A stretch of 64,000 nt of DNA, taken from contig CAIQWC010000012.1 in assembly GCA_903875425.1 (NCBI GenBank), positions 186,001 through 250,000 on the forward strand. The letters run 5' to 3'. How positions within the stretch are numbered: the first letter of the stretch is position 1; each line of letters starts with the position of its first letter. A program made the translations under genes and the position numbers. Source of the DNA: an uncultured Actinomycetes bacterium (GTDB lineage Bacteria; Actinomycetota; Acidimicrobiia; Acidimicrobiales; RAAP-2). The notes beneath the pieces were generated by a model. It had not been told where the DNA came from, did no database searches, and saw nothing but the letters and a program-made list of their open reading frames with translations. This document shows, piece by piece, positions 40,390 through 50,847 of the stretch.

Positions 40390-40392
40390 TGG

Positions 40393-40466
40393 TGGGCGCT
40401 GCGGGACTCGAACCCACGACCTCTGCCGTGTGAAGGCAGCGCTCTAACCAACTGAGCTAAGCGCCC
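40393..40466 (-). tRNA. tRNA-Val, anticodon CAC
   Basis: The 74-base cloverleaf starts GGGCGCTTAGCTCAG, with a 7-bp acceptor stem closed by AGCGCCC and discriminator A. The anticodon arm is CTGCC-TTCACAC-GGCAG, anticodon CAC (reads GUG). The T arm carries GTTCGAGTC. CCA is encoded directly after, at 40390-40392. Confidence 0.97.
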
Positions 40467-40520: not shown

Positions 40521-41381
40521 ATGAACGGGGTAACCTTCAGAACTGTGACCGACGAGATACAAACCCCAAATCCAACGGAGCCTGAACCGAAGTCTGTGGC
40601 TCGAGGCTTCTTGAAGCCCAAGCCAACTTCACCGACGGCGGAAAAAGCCGATGCCGTAATTGTCTACGGCGACCAACGCAAAGAGGCGATGCGCTCGCTC
40701 GAGCCATTTGAGAGAAAACTCGGATACGCCGCTTCGGCGCTAGCCCTCGTTTTCGGCGGTTTCTATTGCTACATCGGCTTAACGGCTGCTCACCCGGCGT
40801 TGGCGAAACCAGTGGGCGGGAAGTGCTCGCTTGACTACAAGCTCGAACATGCGAAATCGGCGGGTAAAGCAATCGCCTTCTGCTCGCTACAGCGCGGTCA
40901 CAGCTACTACGCGATTCTCGCGGTCATCATGGCCATCTTTGTGATTGCAATTGCTTTATCAGCTCGTATCGGCCGTCGCGTGGCTCTTGCCTTCACCGTT
41001 TTGCTTACCGGCTTTGCCCTTAGTGCTGCTGCCGGACTCGCGGTGGCTGTCCCGTTCATTTTAATGGGTGGTTGGCTCATGCTTCGGGCCTGGAGACTAC
41101 AAAAGTTCGGAACAACGGACGCTCGAACGGTAGCCAAACTCAATGCCCAGGCTCGCCTGGATCGAAAAAATGGTGTGAAAACGAACTTTGCCGCGCCGTC
41201 AAAGGGCCAAAAAGTATCTGGTACGAATCCTGCTTCGCCAACGGCCGCAGCGAGCACTACCGACTCGAAGCGATACACGCCGAAAAAACCGGCGCCAAAG
41301 CGTCCAGCGCCTCCCCCGGCCGCAAAGCCCCAAGGTAAAATTTCACAATGGCTGCGGGGTTCTGACGAATCAGGTAGTTAG
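40521..41381 (+). CDS. Actinobacterial membrane protein of unknown function
   Basis: A 286-residue protein with a hydrophilic N-terminus, about four hydrophobic segments (around 72-92, 127-147, 151-171 and 172-192), an extracytoplasmic-type loop with two cysteines between the first and second, and a long Lys/Ala/Pro-rich cytoplasmic-type tail. I recognise no family. ATG 40521 lacks a ribosome-binding site; TACTCT lies nine bases upstream, so a very short leader is possible. GTG 40545 is an alternative. Its stop overlaps the convergent tetR stop by four bases. Confidence 0.65.
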   Translation: MNGVTFRTVTDEIQTPNPTEPEPKSVARGFLKPKPTSPTAEKADAVIVYGDQRKEAMRSLEPFERKLGYAASALALVFGGFYCYIGLTAAHPALAKPVGGKCSLDYKLEHAKSAGKAIAFCSLQRGHSYYAILAVIMAIFVIAIALSARIGRRVALAFTVLLTGFALSAAAGLAVAVPFILMGGWLMLRAWRLQKFGTTDARTVAKLNAQARLDRKNGVKTNFAAPSKGQKVSGTNPASPTAAASTTDSKRYTPKKPAPKRPAPPPAAKPQGKISQWLRGSDESGS

Positions 41382-41971
41382 GACTCAACGCTCAGTGCCG
41401 TTCTCAGGAGTTCAAGTACGTCACGACGTCGGCGTACCAAAGATCGTCCGTCTGCTTGTTCGCCGAGTGCCCGCATCACCTCAACTTCTGTGACCATACC
41501 AATTACCGTTGAATACATCGCGAGTAAAAGTAATTTGGGATCGCTGCGCCGCATTCGACCCGCATCCATCTCTTGCGCTAGGAAACCAGCGGCACGCTGC
41601 ACCAAAGGATCCAGCGCTTGGGTCATTTGTGCTGCTGGCGGGGGGCCGAGACGAGCTACTTCTCGGAGTAGGCCGAGTAGCTCGGGGCGAGACGCCGCTA
41701 AGCGAAACACTGAGCGCACCACCAGTTCGACCCTCGCGAAGCCTTCGGCCTCGGCATCTAAAGCTAATTCGAGCGCCGCACTCAGCTCTCCCGCACCTTG
41801 CGAGATCACCGCGGCCATCAGGGCTTCTTTGGACTCAAACCAATAAAGAATCGTTTGTTTCGATACACCGAGGTCCCCCGCCAATGCATCGAGGGATACG
41901 GCGTCGTAGCCCTTCGTAGCGAAGGAAAGCATGGCTGCCTTGAGAATTCGGTCGGAGGTTCTTTGCGTCAC
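41378..41971 (-). CDS. TetR-family transcriptional regulator
   Basis: A 197-residue regulator with the TetR N-terminal helix-turn-helix: RILKAAMLSFATKGYDAVSLDALAGDLGVSKQTILYWFESKEALMAAV. The C-terminal ligand and dimer domain is helical and not assignable. It is divergent from the acyl-CoA reductase operon, the usual arrangement for a local repressor, and a symmetric site lies over its own start region. Start is GTG 41971, seven bases after TACCAT, so its mRNA is probably leaderless. A lipid or acyl-CoA ligand is plausible from context only. Confidence 0.88.
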   Translation of the reverse strand: MTQRTSDRILKAAMLSFATKGYDAVSLDALAGDLGVSKQTILYWFESKEALMAAVISQGAGELSAALELALDAEAEGFARVELVVRSVFRLAASRPELLGLLREVARLGPPPAAQMTQALDPLVQRAAGFLAQEMDAGRMRRSDPKLLLLAMYSTVIGMVTEVEVMRALGEQADGRSLVRRRRDVLELLRTALSVES

Positions 41972-41972
41972 T

Positions 41973-41984
41973 TACCAAATGGTA
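41973..41984. promoter_or_regulatory. Candidate TetR operator overlapping the tetR -10 box
   Basis: TACCA-AA-TGGTA forms two 5-bp inverted arms. Read on the minus strand, TACCAT (41984-41979) fits a -10 box placed seven bases before the tetR GTG. Binding here would block tetR transcription and, 20-40 bases from the reductase start, probably the divergent operon as well. Confidence 0.5.
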
Positions 41985-42019
41985 GACAAAATCTCCGCCA
42001 AGTGCTAGACCTTTTAATC

Positions 42020-44416
42020 GTGGATATTGCAGCAACGCTTCGTGGCAGACGCTTTTTCATCACCGGTGGTACCGGTTTCCTCGGTACCGCTCTGATCGAA
42101 CGCATTTTGCGAAGTATTCCGGAATCTGAGGTCGTCTTACTCATCCGCCCAGGCCGTCGCAGCACTGCTCTGGATAGAGCCATGAAAGAAATTGTTCGTA
42201 ATGACTGCTTCGATCGACTCCGTGCTGAGCTCGGCGACACTTTCGCGGAGCAAATGGCCGCTCGTATTCGGGCGGTCCCCGGAGATGTCACGCAAGACTG
42301 CCTCGGCTTAGGCCCTGACGGCATTGCCGAGATGGCGGGATGCGACACCATCATTCACTCGGCTGCTGCTGTTGCATTTGATTCACCGCTTGACCAAGCA
42401 ATAGAAATCAACCTGCTCGGACCGAGTCGGGTTGCGGACGCCGTAGCCGCGGCACGGGTTCACGCAGCATCTCTTGGCGTTGCAGGGCCTCGTCACATGA
42501 TTGCTATTTCAACGTGTTACGTGGCTTCCACGTTCCAAGGTGAAGCAAAAGAACACCTGCTCGGTGACCATCGCTTCGACGTAGACGTCGATTGGCATCA
42601 AGAGGTGATGTCTGCGCGACGGCTTCGCCAAGATTATGAAGCCCAATCAAGACTTTCTCCGACACAAGATGAGTTTGTCGTTCGCGCAACCCAAGAACTG
42701 GGCTCGGCCGGTAGTCACGTCATTGCTATTCGCGCCGAGAAGCTACGGCAAGAGTGGATCAAGGACAAACTGGTTACCGCGGGCACAACGCGTTCTCAGG
42801 CCCTTGGCTGGCCCGACGCCTATCCGTACACCAAAGCTCTCGGTGAGCGCGCCCTCGTGGAAAACTACGGTCCCAATTCCAAGAGTCCCCTTCCCATCTC
42901 CATCGTTCGTCCCTCGATTATCGAATCGGCCTTAGCTGAGCCGGCCCCGGGTTGGATCCGTGGTTTCCGGATGGCCGAACCCATCATCGTTTCTTATGCA
43001 CGGGGACTCTTGAAAGAATTTCCCGGCGTACCCGAAGGCATTGTCGACGTTATTCCCGTTGACATGGTGGTTGCCGATGTCATTGCGGTAGCGGCGAAGG
43101 GCCCCGAACAAGACGTCGCTGTCTACCAAATCGCCTCGGGGGTCCGTAATCCCCTCCGATACGGTCGGCTTGTCGAACTCGTCGAAGGCTGGTTTACGGC
43201 CAATCCCCTCTACGATGATCAAGGGCAGCCTATTTCGGTGCCTGCATGGAATTTCCCCGGCCGAGGCCGTGTCCAGCGCCAACTTAAGCGAGCCACCGCG
43301 GGTATTGACGCCCTAGAAAAGGTCCTCGGAGCTCTCCCCCTTCGCGGCGAACGAGCTGATATCGGCGCTCAACTAGAAGAGCGAAATGTCATTGCTAAGC
43401 GGGCATTGGGCTACGTAGAACTTTACGGTGCCTACACCGAAACCGATGCGCGGTATCGCATCGATCGCAGCCTTGCGCTCTATGCGGAGATGACCGAAGA
43501 ATCTCGGGCAACCTTCGCTTTGGATCCAGCCGACATCGACTGGAAGCACTACGTCTGTGACACGCACCTTCCAAGTGTGGTCAAGCACGCTCGCGTGCGG
43601 ACGAGTCCCGGAAAGCCCGTCATGGCCGATAGAGCAGATCGTTCACGTGCGAACGTACTGTCACCTGACCGACAACTTGCCGTGTTCGACCTTGAGAATA
43701 CCCTGATGGCTTCCAACGTCGTCGATACCTACGCGTGGCTAGCAAGCCGGCATCTTCCCCTCTCTGCTCGCACCGCCTTTGTTGCCGACTTAGTGCGCCA
43801 AGGACCCCAGCTCCTTGCACTAGATCGTCGTGATCGTGGTGACTTTCTCCGTAGCTTCTATCTCAAATATCAAGGTGCTCGGGTCGATCAGATTCGCAGC
43901 GACTCATGGCAGCTATTCCACGAGCAGCTTATGTTGCGTAGTTTTCCCGCCGGTATTGCTCGAGTTCGCGAACACCGCCGCTTAGGCCATCGAACTTTGT
44001 TAATTACCGGCGCACTCGATTTAATTATCGAGCCCCTTGCACCGCTCTTCGACGACGTCATTTGTGCCAGTTTGGGAGAAAACAATGGTCGTCTTACCGG
44101 GCGCATGGAATACCTTCCCCCCATTGGTGAAGCTCGAGCCAATGTTCTCGAGGACTACGCCCATGAACACGGGATCTCGCTTGACGAGACCGTGGCCTAC
44201 GCGGATGGAACCTCCGATCTCGCGATGCTTGAAGCCGTGGGTTTTCCCGTAGCGGTCAACCCTGAATCGCGCCTAGCACTCATCGCTCGAAAGCGTGGAT
44301 GGCTGGTTGAGCATTGGTCGCGCGCCGAAGGCGGATCGTCACGGTTACTACCCCTTGGCCCCTTTGACACCATTCGCCCGGGCGGCGCCTGGCGCATGAC
44401 AAGGAGCGTCCGATGA
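42020..44416 (+). CDS. Fatty acyl-CoA reductase fused to a HAD-IB-like domain
   Basis: A protein of about 800 residues. Residues 1-360 form an extended SDR acyl-CoA reductase: NADP loop FITGGTGFLG, catalytic Y-x3-K in DAYPYTKALGE, and ISIVRPSIIESAL. Residues about 360-520 match the FAR C-terminal domain (YVELYGAYTETDARYRID, then DIDWKHYVCDTHLPSV). Residues 550-790 are a HAD-IB-type domain: motif I FDLENTLM (second Asp replaced by Glu), motif II LLITGA, motif IV ADGTSDLAML. The reductase would make a fatty aldehyde or alcohol; the HAD part may act on a phosphate ester. GTG 42020 is preferred; GTG 42002 is possible. No ribosome-binding site. Confidence 0.82.
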   Translation: MDIAATLRGRRFFITGGTGFLGTALIERILRSIPESEVVLLIRPGRRSTALDRAMKEIVRNDCFDRLRAELGDTFAEQMAARIRAVPGDVTQDCLGLGPDGIAEMAGCDTIIHSAAAVAFDSPLDQAIEINLLGPSRVADAVAAARVHAASLGVAGPRHMIAISTCYVASTFQGEAKEHLLGDHRFDVDVDWHQEVMSARRLRQDYEAQSRLSPTQDEFVVRATQELGSAGSHVIAIRAEKLRQEWIKDKLVTAGTTRSQALGWPDAYPYTKALGERALVENYGPNSKSPLPISIVRPSIIESALAEPAPGWIRGFRMAEPIIVSYARGLLKEFPGVPEGIVDVIPVDMVVADVIAVAAKGPEQDVAVYQIASGVRNPLRYGRLVELVEGWFTANPLYDDQGQPISVPAWNFPGRGRVQRQLKRATAGIDALEKVLGALPLRGERADIGAQLEERNVIAKRALGYVELYGAYTETDARYRIDRSLALYAEMTEESRATFALDPADIDWKHYVCDTHLPSVVKHARVRTSPGKPVMADRADRSRANVLSPDRQLAVFDLENTLMASNVVDTYAWLASRHLPLSARTAFVADLVRQGPQLLALDRRDRGDFLRSFYLKYQGARVDQIRSDSWQLFHEQLMLRSFPAGIARVREHRRLGHRTLLITGALDLIIEPLAPLFDDVICASLGENNGRLTGRMEYLPPIGEARANVLEDYAHEHGISLDETVAYADGTSDLAMLEAVGFPVAVNPESRLALIARKRGWLVEHWSRAEGGSSRLLPLGPFDTIRPGGAWRMTRSVR

Positions 44417-45672
44417 AAGCGCTGCGCATGGAACGACGCCCCACGCGTTTCGTGGCGGCCTATCTCGCTTCAGCCCTTGGCGCTGGCCGAGGAGCTGGCG
44501 TTGGACCACTTCGACTCAGCGATGGTGCGGCACCGCGAGAATTGGGCGCCGCCTGGACGCCAGTAACCCCCTTGCTCGCTGGCATCTGCGGTAGTGACCT
44601 GGCCACGGTGGATGGACGTGCATCCCGCAGCTTCGAATCGATAGTGTCCTTTCCCTTCGTACCTGGTCACGAGATCGTAGGGATTACCGACCGCGACGGC
44701 ATGGATGCCAAGGGCCAGGCCTTCGATGCCGGCACCCGGGTTGCGATTCAACCCGTGCTCGGCTGTGCAGCACGCGGTATCAAGCTTTGCGAGGCCTGCT
44801 CCTCTGGCAGCGTCGGTCGTTGTGGAAATCTTGCCCACGGTCACCTACGCCCCGGACTACAAACCGGATACTGTGCTGATACGGGTGGCGGCTGGTCGGA
44901 AGGGCCCCTGATGGCCCACAGCAGTCAGATTTTCCAAGTACCCGCAGCGCTCAGTGACGACCAAGCCGTCATGGTCGAGCCGATGGCCTGTGCCCTTCAT
45001 GCGGCGCTGCGCGGGCGCCTTCGTGAATCAGATACCGTCGCCATTATTGGGGCGGGCACCCTAGGCCTCGGTGTGGTCGCAGCCATTGATTTTCTTCACC
45101 ACGCTTATGGCACCGCAAAGCCAACACAGGTCATCGTTGGGGCTCGCTACCCCCATCAGCGTTCACATGCCTTGCTGCTCGGGGCTGACCAAGTCGTGGA
45201 GCCACATCATCTCGGCCGAGCCGTACGTGCCGCGGTACACGTGGGATCCACTAGTTCCTCAGAACAACTCGGAGAACTCGCCGGTGGGTCCTCGGTGACC
45301 TTTGACTGTGTGGGCTCAGCCGAATCCATCGCCGAAGCACTTCGAATCACGGCTCCTGGTGGCCGGATCATTCTCGTCGGCATGCCGAGCAAGGCGGCAA
45401 TTGATCTAGCCCCCCTATGGAGACGCGAAATAGAACTCATCGGCGCGTATGCCTATGGCGTTGAGCGTATCGGCGATGAATCTATTGCGACATTTGATAT
45501 CGCCTTTGCTTTCGTCGCCGCGAAAGATCTTGGCACCTTGGTATCAGCTCGATACTCCATCGACCGCTTTGAAGAAGCACTCATCCACGCCGGCCAAGCC
45601 GGTAGTCGCGGTGCTACCAAGATCGTTTTTGAATCATCTCGTTCCCTAAAACACCGAAAGGCTGACGCATGA
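44413..45672 (+). CDS. Zinc-dependent medium-chain alcohol dehydrogenase
   Basis: A 419-residue MDR enzyme. Catalytic zinc ligands are in GICGSDLATVDG and PGHEIVG; four cysteines in the 118-139 region (CAARGIKLCEACSSGSVGRCGN) form the structural zinc site; the coenzyme loop is AIIGAGTLGLGVVAA. It overlaps the reductase gene (ATGA), so it could oxidise or reduce the fatty alcohol or aldehyde, or a polyol headgroup. The N-terminus carries an insertion of about 20 residues compared with typical MDRs. Substrate is not evident. Confidence 0.83.
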   Translation: MKALRMERRPTRFVAAYLASALGAGRGAGVGPLRLSDGAAPRELGAAWTPVTPLLAGICGSDLATVDGRASRSFESIVSFPFVPGHEIVGITDRDGMDAKGQAFDAGTRVAIQPVLGCAARGIKLCEACSSGSVGRCGNLAHGHLRPGLQTGYCADTGGGWSEGPLMAHSSQIFQVPAALSDDQAVMVEPMACALHAALRGRLRESDTVAIIGAGTLGLGVVAAIDFLHHAYGTAKPTQVIVGARYPHQRSHALLLGADQVVEPHHLGRAVRAAVHVGSTSSSEQLGELAGGSSVTFDCVGSAESIAEALRITAPGGRIILVGMPSKAAIDLAPLWRREIELIGAYAYGVERIGDESIATFDIAFAFVAAKDLGTLVSARYSIDRFEEALIHAGQAGSRGATKIVFESSRSLKHRKADA

Positions 45673-47258
45673 GTCCTCGTCCAGGCTTCGTCCTCGAAAC
45701 CGACCGTTCTACGCCCCCCACATTGATGTGGAAGGGTGAGTCTTTTGGCCTGCAAAAGCTTCCGACCGGAAGTCGCATTATCTATGCACCCGAGCCCTTC
45801 GATGCGTTGCGCGACCCCGAAGGAGCGATTCGACACGCTCTGGAAAACCCCACCGGAGACTCAGGCCCACTGAGCGCTCTCCTGACGTCGGGCATGAAAC
45901 TCACTATCTGTTTTGATGATATCTCGCTCCCCCTCCCTCCGATGGTCGCGCCCGACATTCGCCAGATGGTGATTGAAGCAGTACTTGACCAAGCCGCCTC
46001 TGCCGGCGTCGAAGACGTGGTTCTGATTGCCGCCCTAGCGCTTCATCGTCGAATGACCGAGTCCGAACTTCGTCACGCACTGGGCGATAGGGTCTACGAC
46101 GCTTTTGCCCCCCATGGACAACTTCTCCAGCATGATGCCGAAGATCCTGAGAACTTACTGTTCATTGGTGAGACCGCCCATGGCGAAGAAGTAGAAATCA
46201 ATAAGCGGGCCGCGGAGAGTGATCTTTTGATCTACGTGAATATCAATCTCGTAGCCATGGATGGAGGTCACAAGTCAGTGGCAACGGGGCTCGCTTCCTA
46301 TCGAAGTCTGCGCCACCATCACAACCCTAAGACCATGACTCATTCCAAGTCATTTATGCACGCACCCAGCTCTGAACTCCACAGTGCCAACTGGCGTATG
46401 GGGCAGCTCATTAAAGATGCTGGTATCAAGATTTTCCAAATTGAAACCACCCTCAATACCGATACGTTCCCGGCTAACTTCTCGTTTTTACAAAAGCGCG
46501 AATGGGAGTGGACCCTGAAGGACCGGCTATCGTTCGCCGCGACCTCTCGTGCCTTAGATCTTGCACCCAGAAAAATGGCGCGCAACATCTTCCACGGCAT
46601 CAAGGCCCCCCATGCCCTTCGTAGCGTCTACGCCGGCGAAGTTGAAGCCGTTCACGAAAAGATTCTCGATGATGTCTGGGCTCAGCAAGGCGTATCGGTC
46701 GAGGGTCAAACCGACATTGTCACCATGGGTTTGCCCTACATCAGTCCCTACAACGTCAACTCCATTCTCAACCCTATTCTCGTCGCCTGTCTTGGACTCG
46801 GTTACTTCTTCAATATGTATCGAGGTAAACCTGTGGTTCGCGAGGGTGGGGTTGCCATCATGTTCCACCCAACTAGCCCTGAGTTTCATCCTGGCCACCA
46901 TCCCAGCTACATCGACTTCTTCGAACAAGTCCTCACCCAAACGACCGATCCCGAAGTCATGCACAAAGAATTCGAGCATGCCTTTGCTACTGATCCTTGG
47001 TACATCCATCTCTATCGCACCGGCCACGCCTATCACGGTGTTCACCCCTTCTACATGTGGTACTGGTGTAGCCACGCCATGCAACACTTAGGCCGGGTCA
47101 TCATTGTTGGTGGTGACCCGAAGACAGTTCGCCGCATGGGCTTTCACCCAGCATCCACCCTCGACGACGCACTAGAGATGGCCAAGGATGTCGTCGGTCC
47201 TTCTCCAAGTTTGACGCACCTCCACAACCCTCCCCTCTTTATGGCGGATGTGTCGTGA
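45669..47258 (+). CDS. LarA-like (DUF2088) nickel-pincer enzyme homologue
   Basis: A 529-residue protein, longer than lactate racemase LarA (about 425). Its N-terminal half keeps key LarA-family positions: FDDISLPLP, ALHRRMTESELRHALG (His 126), LQHDAEDPENLLFIG (His 155), MDGGHKSVATG (Lys 202, the residue that carries the cofactor in LarA) and RHHHN (His 216-218). These bind the nickel-pincer nucleotide and do the hydride transfer in LarA. The C-terminal half (AIMFHPTSPEFHPGHHPSY onward) is specific to this subfamily. The larB, larC and larE cofactor genes are not in the window. It overlaps both neighbours by ATGA or GTGA. Confidence 0.8.
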   Translation: MSPRPGFVLETDRSTPPTLMWKGESFGLQKLPTGSRIIYAPEPFDALRDPEGAIRHALENPTGDSGPLSALLTSGMKLTICFDDISLPLPPMVAPDIRQMVIEAVLDQAASAGVEDVVLIAALALHRRMTESELRHALGDRVYDAFAPHGQLLQHDAEDPENLLFIGETAHGEEVEINKRAAESDLLIYVNINLVAMDGGHKSVATGLASYRSLRHHHNPKTMTHSKSFMHAPSSELHSANWRMGQLIKDAGIKIFQIETTLNTDTFPANFSFLQKREWEWTLKDRLSFAATSRALDLAPRKMARNIFHGIKAPHALRSVYAGEVEAVHEKILDDVWAQQGVSVEGQTDIVTMGLPYISPYNVNSILNPILVACLGLGYFFNMYRGKPVVREGGVAIMFHPTSPEFHPGHHPSYIDFFEQVLTQTTDPEVMHKEFEHAFATDPWYIHLYRTGHAYHGVHPFYMWYWCSHAMQHLGRVIIVGGDPKTVRRMGFHPASTLDDALEMAKDVVGPSPSLTHLHNPPLFMADVS

Positions 47259-48223
47259 TCGGTAGATATCTGACCAAACTAGGAAATCTGCCCTTCCCTC
47301 TGAGCGCGCCTACTTGGCCGTCATCACTATCTCGGCCCAATCCGAAGCGTCACGTGGGTGTCGACTTTGAGACTTCCTGGGCCCGGAGTTACCCAGCACG
47401 GCTGTTCCGAGCCATCTACACCGACTTTCTTGCCAGACCGGTAGCCAATGCCATTGCCCCGTCCACCATTGTCGGATCTGAGAGTCTCGAACGCATAGAC
47501 GGGCCCTTAATCTTTGCCGCTAATCACAACAGCCATGCCGACACCTCGGTGCTCATTAACGCCGTACCCGCTAAATTTCGTCATCGTCTGGTCGTAGCTG
47601 CCGCATCCGACTATTTCTTCGACTCCACGATAAAGGCCACTACCATGGCGCTGATCTTGGGGGCCATTCCCATTGAACGGGCCAAGGTGTCACGTCGCTC
47701 TGCCCAAGCCGCCATTGACCTTGCTGCGGAGGGTTGGAATGTCATCATCTACCCAGAAGGCGGTCGCAGTGCCGATGGATGGATGTCTGAATTCAAATCG
47801 GGTGCCGCATTCGTAGCTCAGCGCTCTGGCGCCACCGTAATTCCTGTCTACATAGAAGGAACCAGCCGCGTCCTTGCCAAGAATCCTCTAGACCGTGGCG
47901 TAGCTCCCGGTGGCTCGGGATCGGAGTCTCGAGACGTCAGCCGTTTGCGCAGGCGTCCGGTTTCCATTCTCTTTGGTCGACCTCTGAAGGCGTTCGAAGG
48001 CGAAGATGTTAGGGATTTCTCGGCGCGCATTGAACAAGCGGTTGTAGAACTGGGTCGTGAATCTGCGACCGACTATTACCAAGCACGCCGAAGTCAAGAC
48101 CGCAGCATCACTCACGGCCCAGAGGCTGGTCCGTGGTTACGTAGCTGGGCTCGACCACGAGCAATTACCGTTAGCGAGCGAAGCCCCCGCGACCGTTGGC
48201 CCCTGCTACGCCGGTCGAACTAA
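47255..48223 (+). CDS. 1-acyl-sn-glycerol-3-phosphate acyltransferase-like protein
   Basis: A 322-residue PlsC-family acyltransferase with the H-x4-D motif at 91-96 (NHNSHADT), the substrate loop GAIPIERAKVSRRS and the YPEGGRSADGWMSEFKSGAAF block. It ends the four-gene operon and would attach an acyl chain to a lysolipid or to the product of the upstream enzymes. Its last 53 bases run antisense to the end of gatD. The C-terminal 45 residues are arginine-rich and lie mostly in or near this overlap. Confidence 0.85.
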   Translation: MIGRYLTKLGNLPFPLSAPTWPSSLSRPNPKRHVGVDFETSWARSYPARLFRAIYTDFLARPVANAIAPSTIVGSESLERIDGPLIFAANHNSHADTSVLINAVPAKFRHRLVVAAASDYFFDSTIKATTMALILGAIPIERAKVSRRSAQAAIDLAAEGWNVIIYPEGGRSADGWMSEFKSGAAFVAQRSGATVIPVYIEGTSRVLAKNPLDRGVAPGGSGSESRDVSRLRRRPVSILFGRPLKAFEGEDVRDFSARIEQAVVELGRESATDYYQARRSQDRSITHGPEAGPWLRSWARPRAITVSERSPRDRWPLLRRSN

Positions 48224-48914
48224 TTCGTTCCGCCCGCAGATCGAGCGCGCGCTCATCATCGAGGGCGCTGAGCGTCCCCGATCCAGCCAGAACCAAAAGT
48301 CGATCTGCAAGTTCCGGGTTTCTAGCAAGCGCCGGCCCATGGAGATAGGTGCCAACTCGGGACTCCTGAATAGCACCTTCTATGTTTCCGATGCCATTAC
48401 CCACACCATGTAATACCGTTGCGAAGGTCGCACAGCCAGCACCCACTGTGGTGCGAGATCCATGATTTTCGAATCCACTGAGCAAGACCTCACCGATGCC
48501 AAGTTCCGCACTAGCTCGAACCACTAACTCCCCTACGGCTCGAGGCGCATCTGTTCGAATCGTTTCAGCATCGAAGAGTCCGAGGCCCGGGCGACTCGAG
48601 CCGTCCGTTACAACAAACGACGAGGTCAAGATTTGAAAACCGGCACACACGGCGAAGATGGCCGCTCCCTGCCGCACCGCCTCCATGAAGAAAGCGTCAT
48701 TACCGAGCCGTTCAGCCGCGAGCCCTTGGGGTCCATCCTCCCCGCCACCTATGACGTAGAGATCGGCCTTGGGAAGAGAGTGATGCGAATTCACGCGAAG
48801 GTGCTCGACGTTTAGGCCGCGTCGTTTCATGCGCTGTTCTAAGACAATGCCGTTACCCGAGTCGCCATAGGTCCCCAGTAAGTCTGGATAGACCGTCACG
48901 ATGCGAATAGTCAT
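48171..48914 (-). CDS. gatD: Lipid II isoglutaminyl synthase glutaminase subunit GatD
   Basis: GatD supplies ammonia to MurT, which amidates D-Glu of the peptidoglycan stem. The 247-residue class I-type amidotransferase has the nucleophile Cys 90 in FAVCAGFQIL and His 192 in GTYLHGPALARNP, plus the family FENHGSRT segment. The start overlaps the murT stop (ATGA). The last ~35 residues extend beyond the usual end and run antisense to the acyltransferase gene. Confidence 0.93.
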   Translation of the reverse strand: MTIRIVTVYPDLLGTYGDSGNGIVLEQRMKRRGLNVEHLRVNSHHSLPKADLYVIGGGEDGPQGLAAERLGNDAFFMEAVRQGAAIFAVCAGFQILTSSFVVTDGSSRPGLGLFDAETIRTDAPRAVGELVVRASAELGIGEVLLSGFENHGSRTTVGAGCATFATVLHGVGNGIGNIEGAIQESRVGTYLHGPALARNPELADRLLVLAGSGTLSALDDERALDLRAERISSTGVAGANGRGGFAR

Positions 48915-50125
48915 GACAACTTCCTCAGATCACCGAAGGCGGTGTAGTTGGCCATTGCCACCACCCGCCCGCCACCATGGCCCGCACGTAACACGGCTTG
49001 ACGAGAGTCTGGCTCACAGTGATGCGCCACGTCGGCGTAGTCGAGACGTACGGAGAGATCACGCCAGCGATCCCCGCTTGCGATGACCGTACGTCCAGCC
49101 AACTGCGAAAAATCTACGTCCCAGAGCCAAGACGGGTCAGCTCCGTCAGCGATACGTGCGTTAATCGACACGACGATCGGATTCGACTGTCCTGCCACCA
49201 TCGCGAGCAGTGCTGCCCAACCGGCAGGATTCTTGGCGAGCATTAATTCTGCGTCGACGCCACCGATACTTCGATGTTCAAAGCGTCCCGCTACGGTTCC
49301 AACGCTCGTAAGTGCGCTACATACCGCACCTACATCGAGGCCAAGCGCTTCCGAGGCGGCCACCACGAGGAGGGCGTTGTCGACATTAAACGAGCCTGGG
49401 ATGGAGATCTCTAAATTCCCTCGTTGCTGGTCGAGGGCAAAAACCCGCTTGCCCTCTCTACGCCAGCGCGCTGGCGGTTGATCGAGGTCACACGCGTCAC
49501 ACGCCCACCCGTGTCCAAAAACGATCTCACCACCACAGCTAGGGCAACCAATAGCATCGTCGCTCCAAACCAAACCGGCTTCCACGAAGATGGTTTTGGC
49601 AACAGCTCTGGTCGCATGTACAACCATGGGGTCATCGGCATTCGCGATTACGATGCCGCTGTATCCCTCTAGTGCAGTACGCCAGCGCTCAGCGAGCTTG
49701 CGTACCTCGTTCATTCGATCGAGTTGATCTCGAGACAGGTTCAAGAGCACGATGGCATCGGGGTGAGTGGCGACAATACTGTGGGCCAGATACGCCTCAT
49801 CAACTTCAAGCGCCACCTGAAAGGCATCTCGGTGCTCGACGAGAGCCGCTACGTGACCGGCAGGCATGTTGGATCCCGTAGCGTTGGTCGCAACGGGTCC
49901 CCGCGTTCTCAGCGCAGCCGCCATGAAGGCAGTCGTCGTGGTTTTACCATTCGTGCCCGAAATCAAGACCGTACTTCGGCGCTCTGATAGCTCCGCTAAG
50001 AGCTTGGCGTCGATCTTTAATCCGGCCTTTCCTCCAACGACCGTGCCGCTGCCACGACCACTAAGTCGAGAGATGCGGTTCATGACCATGACCGCGGCGA
50101 CAGCGACGGCGTATCGCACTCTCAC
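48911..50125 (-). CDS. murT: Lipid II isoglutaminyl synthase subunit MurT
   Basis: MurT is a Mur-ligase-like enzyme that activates the D-Glu carboxylate with ATP. The 404-residue protein has an ATP loop ISGTNGKTTTTAFMA, the NLSRDQLDRMNEV block, and the MurT-specific C4 zinc ribbon (GCPSCGGEI and WACDACDLD). A DUF1727 C-terminal domain follows. With GatD it makes D-isoglutamine in the stem peptide, important for cross-linking in many Gram-positives. GTG 50125 overlaps the plsC stop (GTGA), so the three genes form one unit. Confidence 0.94.
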   Translation of the reverse strand: MRVRYAVAVAAVMVMNRISRLSGRGSGTVVGGKAGLKIDAKLLAELSERRSTVLISGTNGKTTTTAFMAAALRTRGPVATNATGSNMPAGHVAALVEHRDAFQVALEVDEAYLAHSIVATHPDAIVLLNLSRDQLDRMNEVRKLAERWRTALEGYSGIVIANADDPMVVHATRAVAKTIFVEAGLVWSDDAIGCPSCGGEIVFGHGWACDACDLDQPPARWRREGKRVFALDQQRGNLEISIPGSFNVDNALLVVAASEALGLDVGAVCSALTSVGTVAGRFEHRSIGGVDAELMLAKNPAGWAALLAMVAGQSNPIVVSINARIADGADPSWLWDVDFSQLAGRTVIASGDRWRDLSVRLDYADVAHHCEPDSRQAVLRAGHGGGRVVAMANYTAFGDLRKLS

Positions 50126-50847
50126 GAGCGCTCCTTGAAGCGTGAACCTTGCCTACCCATCGTCTCGGCCATAGCGATCTGGTCCGAGATGGCGTCCGCC
50201 AAGAGTGCGACGGTGTCACGGGTCTTGGCCGTCGTAGGAACGCTGGGGCCTACATGAATGTTTACCTGTGGCGGATTCAGGACCTTCGTAACTCGCGGAA
50301 ATTTGGATTGTCGAGGCCAGACGAGCTCGGTGCCAATCATGCCAACGGGCACGAGCGGTACATCGCAACGCTTGGCCAAGCGAACCGCTCCCGCTTTGAG
50401 TTGCAAAGCGGGCTCGCCGAACGCTTCTCCCCTCGGAATAGTCCCTTCGGGCATCACGACAAGAAGCTCTCCGCGATCAAGCACCGTTCGCGCCAGATTG
50501 AAAGCTTCTCGAGCGCTACCATCTCTATCTACCGGGACCGCTCCCATAGCTAGCAGGGTCGGACCCAGGATCGGAGCAGCGCAGAGTTCGGCCTTGGTCA
50601 TCACGCGCAGTGACCTACCCAGCCGCCTCGAGAGCATCACGAGGGCGAAGAGATCGAAGAAACTACGATGATTGGGGGCCAAAATGGCTGGACCCTCGCG
50701 AGGGATGTTTTCTGTACCCGCTACCAAAAAGCGCGCATAGGGAAACATAGAGTTCGCGCACAGGGCTCTGAGGAGGCGCTGTGGCTCAAAGCCAAACCAG
50801 GTCGGAACCATTCCTTTTTCCTCACGGGCAGCAGCGTCAGAAGCCAT
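50122..50847 (-). CDS. plsC: 1-acyl-sn-glycerol-3-phosphate acyltransferase (PlsC)
   Basis: A 241-residue acyltransferase making phosphatidic acid. It has the catalytic H-x4-D as APNHRSFFDLF, GAVPVDRDGSAREA, the phosphate-binding MPEGTIPRGEAF block and VPLVPVGMIGTE. It is the more canonical of the window's two PlsC-like proteins. It is first in the plsC-murT-gatD unit; the 6C RNA on the same strand ends only some 40 bases upstream, so read-through from that promoter could reach it. Confidence 0.9.
   Translation of the reverse strand: MASDAAAREEKGMVPTWFGFEPQRLLRALCANSMFPYARFLVAGTENIPREGPAILAPNHRSFFDLFALVMLSRRLGRSLRVMTKAELCAAPILGPTLLAMGAVPVDRDGSAREAFNLARTVLDRGELLVVMPEGTIPRGEAFGEPALQLKAGAVRLAKRCDVPLVPVGMIGTELVWPRQSKFPRVTKVLNPPQVNIHVGPSVPTTAKTRDTVALLADAISDQIAMAETMGRQGSRFKERS

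Follow-up and report, generated by a model that had tools for sequence, protein, structure and literature searches.

The window analysed here is a stretch of 64,000 nucleotides from an uncultured bacterium of the Acidimicrobiales (assembly GCA_903875425.1, contig CAIQWC010000012.1, positions 186,001 to 250,000). It carries an operon for a fatty acyl-CoA reductase fused to a HAD domain (FAR-HAD), a zinc MDR dehydrogenase (ADH), a LarA-like nickel-pincer-nucleotide (NPN) enzyme of the LarAH14/15/16 type (hereafter LarAH14) and a PlsC-like acyltransferase, with a TetR-family regulator gene divergent from it (Table 1). The operon is real, conserved and TetR-linked, which supports an earlier note, made from the letters of this DNA alone, that had proposed such a unit for an unusual lipid. 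With somewhat better than even confidence, I read the function of the operon as the production of 1-O-alkyl glycerol (ether) lipids, in which LarAH14 would act at the AGPS step or at a tightly coupled C2 hydride-transfer step.

Gene order, distribution and cofactor supply

The four genes overlap end to start by 4 bp at all three junctions (ATGA, ATGA and GTGA), just as the earlier note had it, and Pfam and NCBIfam agreed with its domain calls for all five genes. The window genome (G000) has a size of 1.6 Mb and is 98% complete, and its nearest named relatives are mostly Acidimicrobiia. A collection search yielded 80 loci, nearly all with the same gene order; genes were called with a codon-based caller, as plain lists of open reading frames gave shadow frames in GC-rich loci. 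Where enough flanking sequence was present, the order FAR-ADH-LAR-PlsC held for 55 of 58 loci of the Acidimicrobiia type and for 12 of 13 other non-Rubrobacter loci from distant actinobacterial families, so the four-gene order does recur across actinobacterial genomes. Loci short of the full order mostly appear to reflect missed gene calls, since tblastn detects the genes. Pairwise identities of the four operon proteins were correlated (rho 0.82-0.91), LarAH14 being the most conserved of the four.

A survey of 396 Actinomycetota genomes showed LarAH14 in 80 and FAR-HAD in 83 genomes, and every one of the 80 LarAH14 genomes, which span 25 families, also carried FAR-HAD (hypergeometric log10 P = -80, phylogeny ignored). 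FAR-HAD occurred without LarAH14 in three genomes: a Rubrobacteraceae assembly that is 90% complete, one whose LarA is divergent, and G347, which alone among the essentially complete FAR-HAD genomes has no LarA homologue. A search for LarA on plasmids gave no match.

The window genome encodes larE (contig C42), larC and larB (both on contig C22, ~35 bp apart or overlapping), and a single Lar_N protein, which makes the operon LarA the only visible client of the NPN cofactor. The proposed check for larB, larC and larE was thus positive in the window genome itself, and results elsewhere agreed: larB scored above its cut-off in 26 of 30 LarAH14 genomes compared to 0 of 20 genomes without LarAH14, larC agreed, and in family f32 (loci L122-L124) the operon extends beyond PlsC into larE, larB and larC, which overlap one another by 4 bp in L122. 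Adjacent larC and larB fragments were seen in one LarAH14-bearing genome (G362:C8:25857-26702), and these are either decayed genes or assembly errors.

Table 1. Coordinates of the operon, its regulator gene and the putative operator in the window.
Feature	Position	Strand	Remarks
TetR-family regulator	41378-41971	-	divergent from operon; GTG start; TetR_N E 4e-12
Palindromic operator (predicted) TACCAAATGGTA	41973-41984	.	between TetR and FAR-HAD starts
FAR-HAD	42020-44416	+	PF07993 172 bits, PF12710 91 bits; NAD_binding_4, weak Sterile and HAD
Zinc MDR dehydrogenase (ADH)	44413-45672	+	ADH_N/ADH_zinc_N, PF08240/PF00107
LarA-like protein, LarAH14/15/16-type NPN enzyme with a single catalytic His	45669-47258	+	Lar_N; NF052592
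PlsC-like acyltransferase	47255-48223	+	PF01553 77 bits

Residues and folds of the operon proteins

LarAH14 is a full-length member of NF052592 (LarAH14/15/16), scoring 879 bits over residues 7-528 (cut-off 740), and stays far below the cut-off for lactate racemase proper (NF033504; 86 bits, cut-off 460). In LarA, Lys184 anchors the NPN, His200 is a nickel ligand, Asp72 binds the ribose and His108 is the first catalytic residue, while R75 contacts the cofactor phosphate and the substrate carboxylate, and H174 is the second catalytic His (PMC12611868). The earlier statement that the pincer-nucleotide residues are kept was right for D84 (=D72), H126 (=H108), K202 (=K184) and H218 (=H200), each present in all 111 aligned sequences. 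It was wrong for the R75 position, which is Leu in 104 of 111, and for the H174 position, which is Asn in 108 of 111. A 2-hydroxy-acid racemase is unlikely because the second catalytic His and the carboxylate-binding Arg are replaced.

The AlphaFold model of LarAH14 (predicted local distance difference test, pLDDT, 94.9) has the single-His enzyme 9q3k as its nearest fold (Z 41.5, 2.2 Å, 453 aligned residues, 28% identity), with lactate racemase 5huq clearly behind (Z 30.2) and fold matches beyond the LarA structures at Z ~6. A Frankia LarAH14 was inactive in all assays done (PMC7583248). Taken together, the residue losses, the nearest single-His fold and this inactivity make a carboxylate substrate and a simple C2 inversion unlikely. 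These results bear on the suggestion of an alkyl or hydroxyacid-containing lipid, of which the first part is favoured by the evidence from Rubrobacter, AGPS-type sister clusters and ADH kinship given below. The second part, a lipid in which an ordinary LarA isomerase fixes the configuration of a 2-hydroxy acid, fared poorly. Members of the LarA superfamily of known activity do act on 2-hydroxy acids (PMC7583248, PMC11770544), but in addition to the changes at R75 and H174 and the inactive Frankia enzyme, no recurrent gene for making or activating a hydroxy acid was found nearby, and I consider such a product quite unlikely. A glycolipid-related role would follow from the likeness to 9q3k, as the group of this enzyme is proposed to act on carbohydrates. 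However, identity is just 28%, the glycolytic neighbours of the 9q3k group never recur near the cassette, and the conserved cassette has no glycosyltransferase, leaving this role most improbable.

A sister LarA group (L135-L138; ~526 bits to NF052592, under the cut-off) was found without the FAR cassette. Its genes immediately follow a class III CoA-transferase-like gene, and the host genomes have strong AGPS matches.

FAR-HAD has the TGxTGFxG and YxxxK motifs and the NAD_binding_4 architecture of a fatty acyl-CoA reductase, which was also its best solved structure (206 bits); its Sterile domain scored below the Pfam cut-off (26.7 vs 35.4). Residues Y268/K272, D557, D729 and D733 were invariant in 85 of 85 sequences. 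The HAD domain resembles HAD-IB phosphatases, scoring slightly under the cut-off of TIGR01490 (94.9 bits, cut-off 98.3), and keeps motifs I, II and IV. Motif I (residues 557-559) is mostly DxE and not DxD (D+2 is Glu in 72 and Asp in 13 of the 85), and the motif III Lys is replaced by Arg (residue 706) throughout. A parallel drawn earlier with Rv2483c, a HAD-IB/PlsC fusion, turned out not to be close, the HAD domain here being fused to FAR and not to PlsC. In the PlsC-like protein, HX4D (H91, D96) and EGxR (E168, G169, R171) were found in 86 of 86 sequences. ADH is nearest to ketose reductase and to sorbitol, xylitol and idonate dehydrogenases, and its PDB matches are mostly C2-polyol dehydrogenases. 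The substrates of these enzymes are secondary alcohols of polyols, and alkyl-dihydroxyacetone phosphate reductase likewise acts at C2.

Evidence for an ether-lipid product and its alternatives

The kinship of ADH to C2-polyol dehydrogenases is one of the observations that indicate ether lipids; another comes from Rubrobacter. Family f34 was identified as Rubrobacteraceae from two plasmid contigs: the one in G051 shares 100% identity with R. radiotolerans NZ_CP007516.1 across 20 kb, and the one in G174 is likewise identical to an R. tropicus plasmid record. Among the sampled f34 genomes, 22 had LarAH14 and 23 had FAR-HAD. The larA-like gene of Rubrobacter belongs to the FAR-HAD cluster but usually lies a few genes apart, and PlsC is missing there. 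A gene for the glycerol-3-phosphate acyltransferase PlsY stands directly upstream of FAR-HAD in the six Rubrobacter loci with a visible upstream end, and this cassette-linked PlsY is the sole PlsY in four of five Rubrobacter genomes. The abstract of a paper on Rubrobacterales lipids reportedly mentions a putative 1-O-alkyl glycerol phosphate operon that resembles the ether-lipid operon of other aerobes, and this may be the same operon.

PF09989, which I take to be the marker domain for PlsA/Ger, was found in 0 of 27 genomes, the window genome included, and the PlsA/Ger route was rejected on this absence. No AGPS at E <= 1e-40 was found in the window genome or in the examined Rubrobacter genomes, and the sole FAD-oxidase_C protein of the window genome is GlcD-like. 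Sinninghe Damste et al. (2023), as cited in PMC11150832, report in their title that mixed ether/ester lipids are dominant in five Rubrobacterales species; that Rubrobacter carries the cassette behind PlsY, without PlsA/Ger and AGPS, therefore points to ether lipids. An ElbD-type route was rejected for Rubrobacter, where the second strong FAR match is an adenylation-thiolation-reductase protein and not ElbD. This protein (L165:7067-10987, L166:8120-11925, L167 and L168) has an SDR neighbour in three of four loci and possibly serves an amino-alcohol lipid head group.

Ether lipids are also indicated by G347 and a Streptomyces plasmid, which have AGPS, PlsC and SDR genes beside FAR-HAD. In G347, FAR-HAD sits between two ferritin-like genes and is divergent to genes for an SDR, a PlsC and an AGPS-like protein of 557 residues, whose best structure is AGPS (2uuu; 375 bits vs 70 for the next family) and which has an SHHHG loop. 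A cluster of the same type, with most genes 57-74% identical, lies between transposase-like genes on the megaplasmid of Streptomyces sp. NBC_01450, and the two are possibly a mobile ether-lipid or plasmalogen cluster. These clusters suggest that FAR-HAD works in two variants, either with AGPS, PlsC and a reductase or with LarAH14, PlsC and an MDR dehydrogenase. In L216:7990-15124 and L242:7095-15083, the two ferritin-like (possible di-iron) proteins that flank FAR-HAD are translationally coupled, divergent to SDR-PlsC-AGPS. An operon for fatty alcohols, wax esters or storage lipids, with PlsC esterifying the alcohol or glycerol, would account for FAR and an acyltransferase in one operon. It leaves an obligatory NPN enzyme, a polyol-type dehydrogenase, and the AGPS and SDR genes beside FAR-HAD in G347 and Streptomyces unexplained, however, and is very unlikely. 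The argument of the earlier note against wax esters, the lack of a wax ester synthase gene, covers the window alone.

A full AGPS search over the 396 genomes was used for assessing AGPS presence, as the HHHG motif alone misses THHHAVG variants. Strong AGPS (at least 285 bits) was detected in 78 genomes, one of which had LarAH14 (Fisher p 8e-8, phylogeny ignored). Some LarAH14 genomes encode AGPS-like proteins in which the loop reads THHHAVG (L232:7390-8982, L234:14195-15523 and L235:6237-7859).

For the ether-lipid operon I infer the following steps, and the reaction of LarAH14 above all, from the genes and residues described. The FAR domain would reduce fatty acyl-CoA to a fatty alcohol (or aldehyde). 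Acylation of a glycerol-phosphate unit would fall to the operon PlsC-like enzyme or, in Rubrobacter, to the neighbouring PlsY. LarAH14, with NPN made by LarB, LarC and LarE, may perform the reaction for which animals and some bacteria use AGPS, or else a tightly coupled hydride transfer at glyceryl C2, while the MDR dehydrogenase would convert alkyl- or acyl-dihydroxyacetone phosphate to its glycerol counterpart and back. PlsC would add the sn-2 acyl chain, and the HAD domain would remove a phosphate somewhere in the pathway. A more specific and tentative proposal is that LarAH14 is an NPN-dependent ether synthase that forms the alkyl C-O bond, as an unrelated substitute for the flavoenzyme AGPS. 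Here, one acid/base His might suffice if transient C2 oxidation lets the fatty alcohol displace the C1 acyl group; alternatively, a cofactor hydride might be handed to an oxocarbenium formed from the fatty aldehyde.

The operon may instead make ether lipids with an unlinked enzyme forming the ether bond, LarAH14 taking a supporting redox or stereochemical step (for example at C2 of the glycerol-phosphate backbone, such as interconverting its configuration, or on a head group). All evidence that ties the cassette to ether lipids fits equally well, some carriers have AGPS-like homologues, and LarA enzymes are hydride-transfer catalysts; a different reaction mediated by hydride has been suggested for homologues without H174 or K298 (PMC7583248). 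Yet with neither AGPS nor PlsA/Ger in the window genome or in the examined Rubrobacter genomes, an enzyme of an unknown kind would be needed, and a single catalytic His suits C2 inversion poorly, so this arrangement appears doubtful. Summed over it and the favoured role of LarAH14 at the AGPS or C2 step, ether-lipid synthesis is the best-supported function and a likely one.

Several points weigh against that favoured role. C-O bond formation is not known for any NPN enzyme, and the exchange of AGPS for LarAH14 is known from two related clusters only. Another 13 LarAH14 genomes have AGPS-like homologues (145-260 bits), which in two cases lie no more than 5 kb from the cassette, so the exclusion between LarAH14 and AGPS-like proteins is incomplete; the copies examined show the HHH loop, and the copy in G241 has AGPS as its nearest structure (265 bits). 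Both the co-occurrence and the exclusivity statistics ignore phylogeny, and intact larB/larC are missing from four of the 30 LarAH14 genomes examined. The literature searches turned up no lipid data on the window organism or on other Acidimicrobiia, and the link from Rubrobacter to ether lipids comes from a paper title (Sinninghe Damste et al. 2023, via PMC11150832).

The LarAH14/15/16 family is already known; the literature searched contained no description of the cassette, its distribution, its connection with cofactor genes or the AGPS-type sister cluster. Nor did it contain papers that connect LarA homologues to FAR, PlsC or ether lipids, in a search that did not extend to the supplementary neighbour tables of PMC7583248 for group 14. 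Apart from PlsA/Ger, little is understood of alkyl ether lipid synthesis in aerobic bacteria, and the nickel-pincer field has yet to settle what H174-less LarA proteins catalyse. If true, the proposal of an NPN-dependent ether synthase would provide the first non-isomerase NPN enzyme and a new bacterial route to ether lipids. The cassette connects the two questions: it points to a class of substrates for an orphan LarA group, provides a genetic marker by which to look for ether lipids among widespread actinobacteria, and narrows the candidates to a few proteins.

Regulator, neighbouring genes and comparison with known systems

The symmetric site that had been placed over the TetR promoter was borne out. 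The palindrome is the sole match in the window (0.02 expected), adjoins the TetR start and lies ~35 bp before the FAR-HAD start; its core, TACCA-NN-TGGTA, was found in 38 of 38 divergent TetR/FAR intergenic regions and is often extended to TCTACCA-NN-TGGTAGA. TetR homologues were present in 42 loci, and in 35 of these the gene was divergent and directly upstream of FAR-HAD. TetR probably represses the operon and itself via the conserved palindrome. A genome-wide TetR regulon was considered and rejected, with 1-3 sites per genome, a number near the level of control patterns once the cassette copy is set aside; because of this low number TetR looks like a local regulator.

Downstream of the operon, a GatD-MurT pair and a second PlsC-like gene (48171-50847, minus strand) recur near the cassette in many Acidimicrobiia loci, and the GatD gene and the 3' end of the operon PlsC gene overlap by 53 bp. 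TetR is preceded by a membrane protein gene, and upstream of the latter lies a tRNA-Val (cac) gene (40390-40466, minus strand).

Among known systems, the PlsA/Ger ester-to-ether reductases are a bacterial source of glycerol lipids of the 1-O-alkyl type proposed here (or of the alkenyl type), but their marker domain PF09989 is absent here. The elb ether-lipid operon of Myxococcus xanthus (ElbD; PMC9131029) is similar in bringing together a FAR-like domain, a HAD phosphatase, an AGPAT-like acyltransferase and a dehydrogenase, and the ether-forming step is unassigned there as it is here. In contrast to ElbD, FAR-HAD has no AMP-binding (acyl-CoA synthetase), acyl carrier protein or acyltransferase domain. 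Furthermore, HAD is fused to FAR, the dehydrogenase is an MDR and not an SDR, and a LarA-like protein is added (ElbC was left out of this comparison).

The LarA-like protein of the operon shares with the LarAH14/15/16 family (NF052592; Frankia LarAH14, PMC7583248) a score past the family cut-off, the NPN-anchoring Lys, the nickel His and one catalytic His, and it lacks H174, as groups 14 and 15 were described to do (PMC7583248). It differs in being tied to a FAR-HAD lipid cassette and in possibly replacing AGPS. LarA_Sp and LarA_Bw (9q3k, 9q3j; PMC12611868) have the closest fold, an Asn where the second catalytic His would stand, and the conserved Tyr and His of the C-domain (Y361 and H459 here by alignment); they differ in having 28% identity, a Lys at the R75 position where Leu is found here, and a glycolytic neighbourhood. 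Finally, FAR, the acyltransferase and the C2 oxidoreductase match one-to-one the parts of the AGPS pathway (FAR1, GNPAT, AGPS, reductase and AGPAT) and of the G347/Streptomyces cluster, whereas the window genome, which lacks AGPS, has LarAH14 and an MDR ADH instead of AGPS and SDR.

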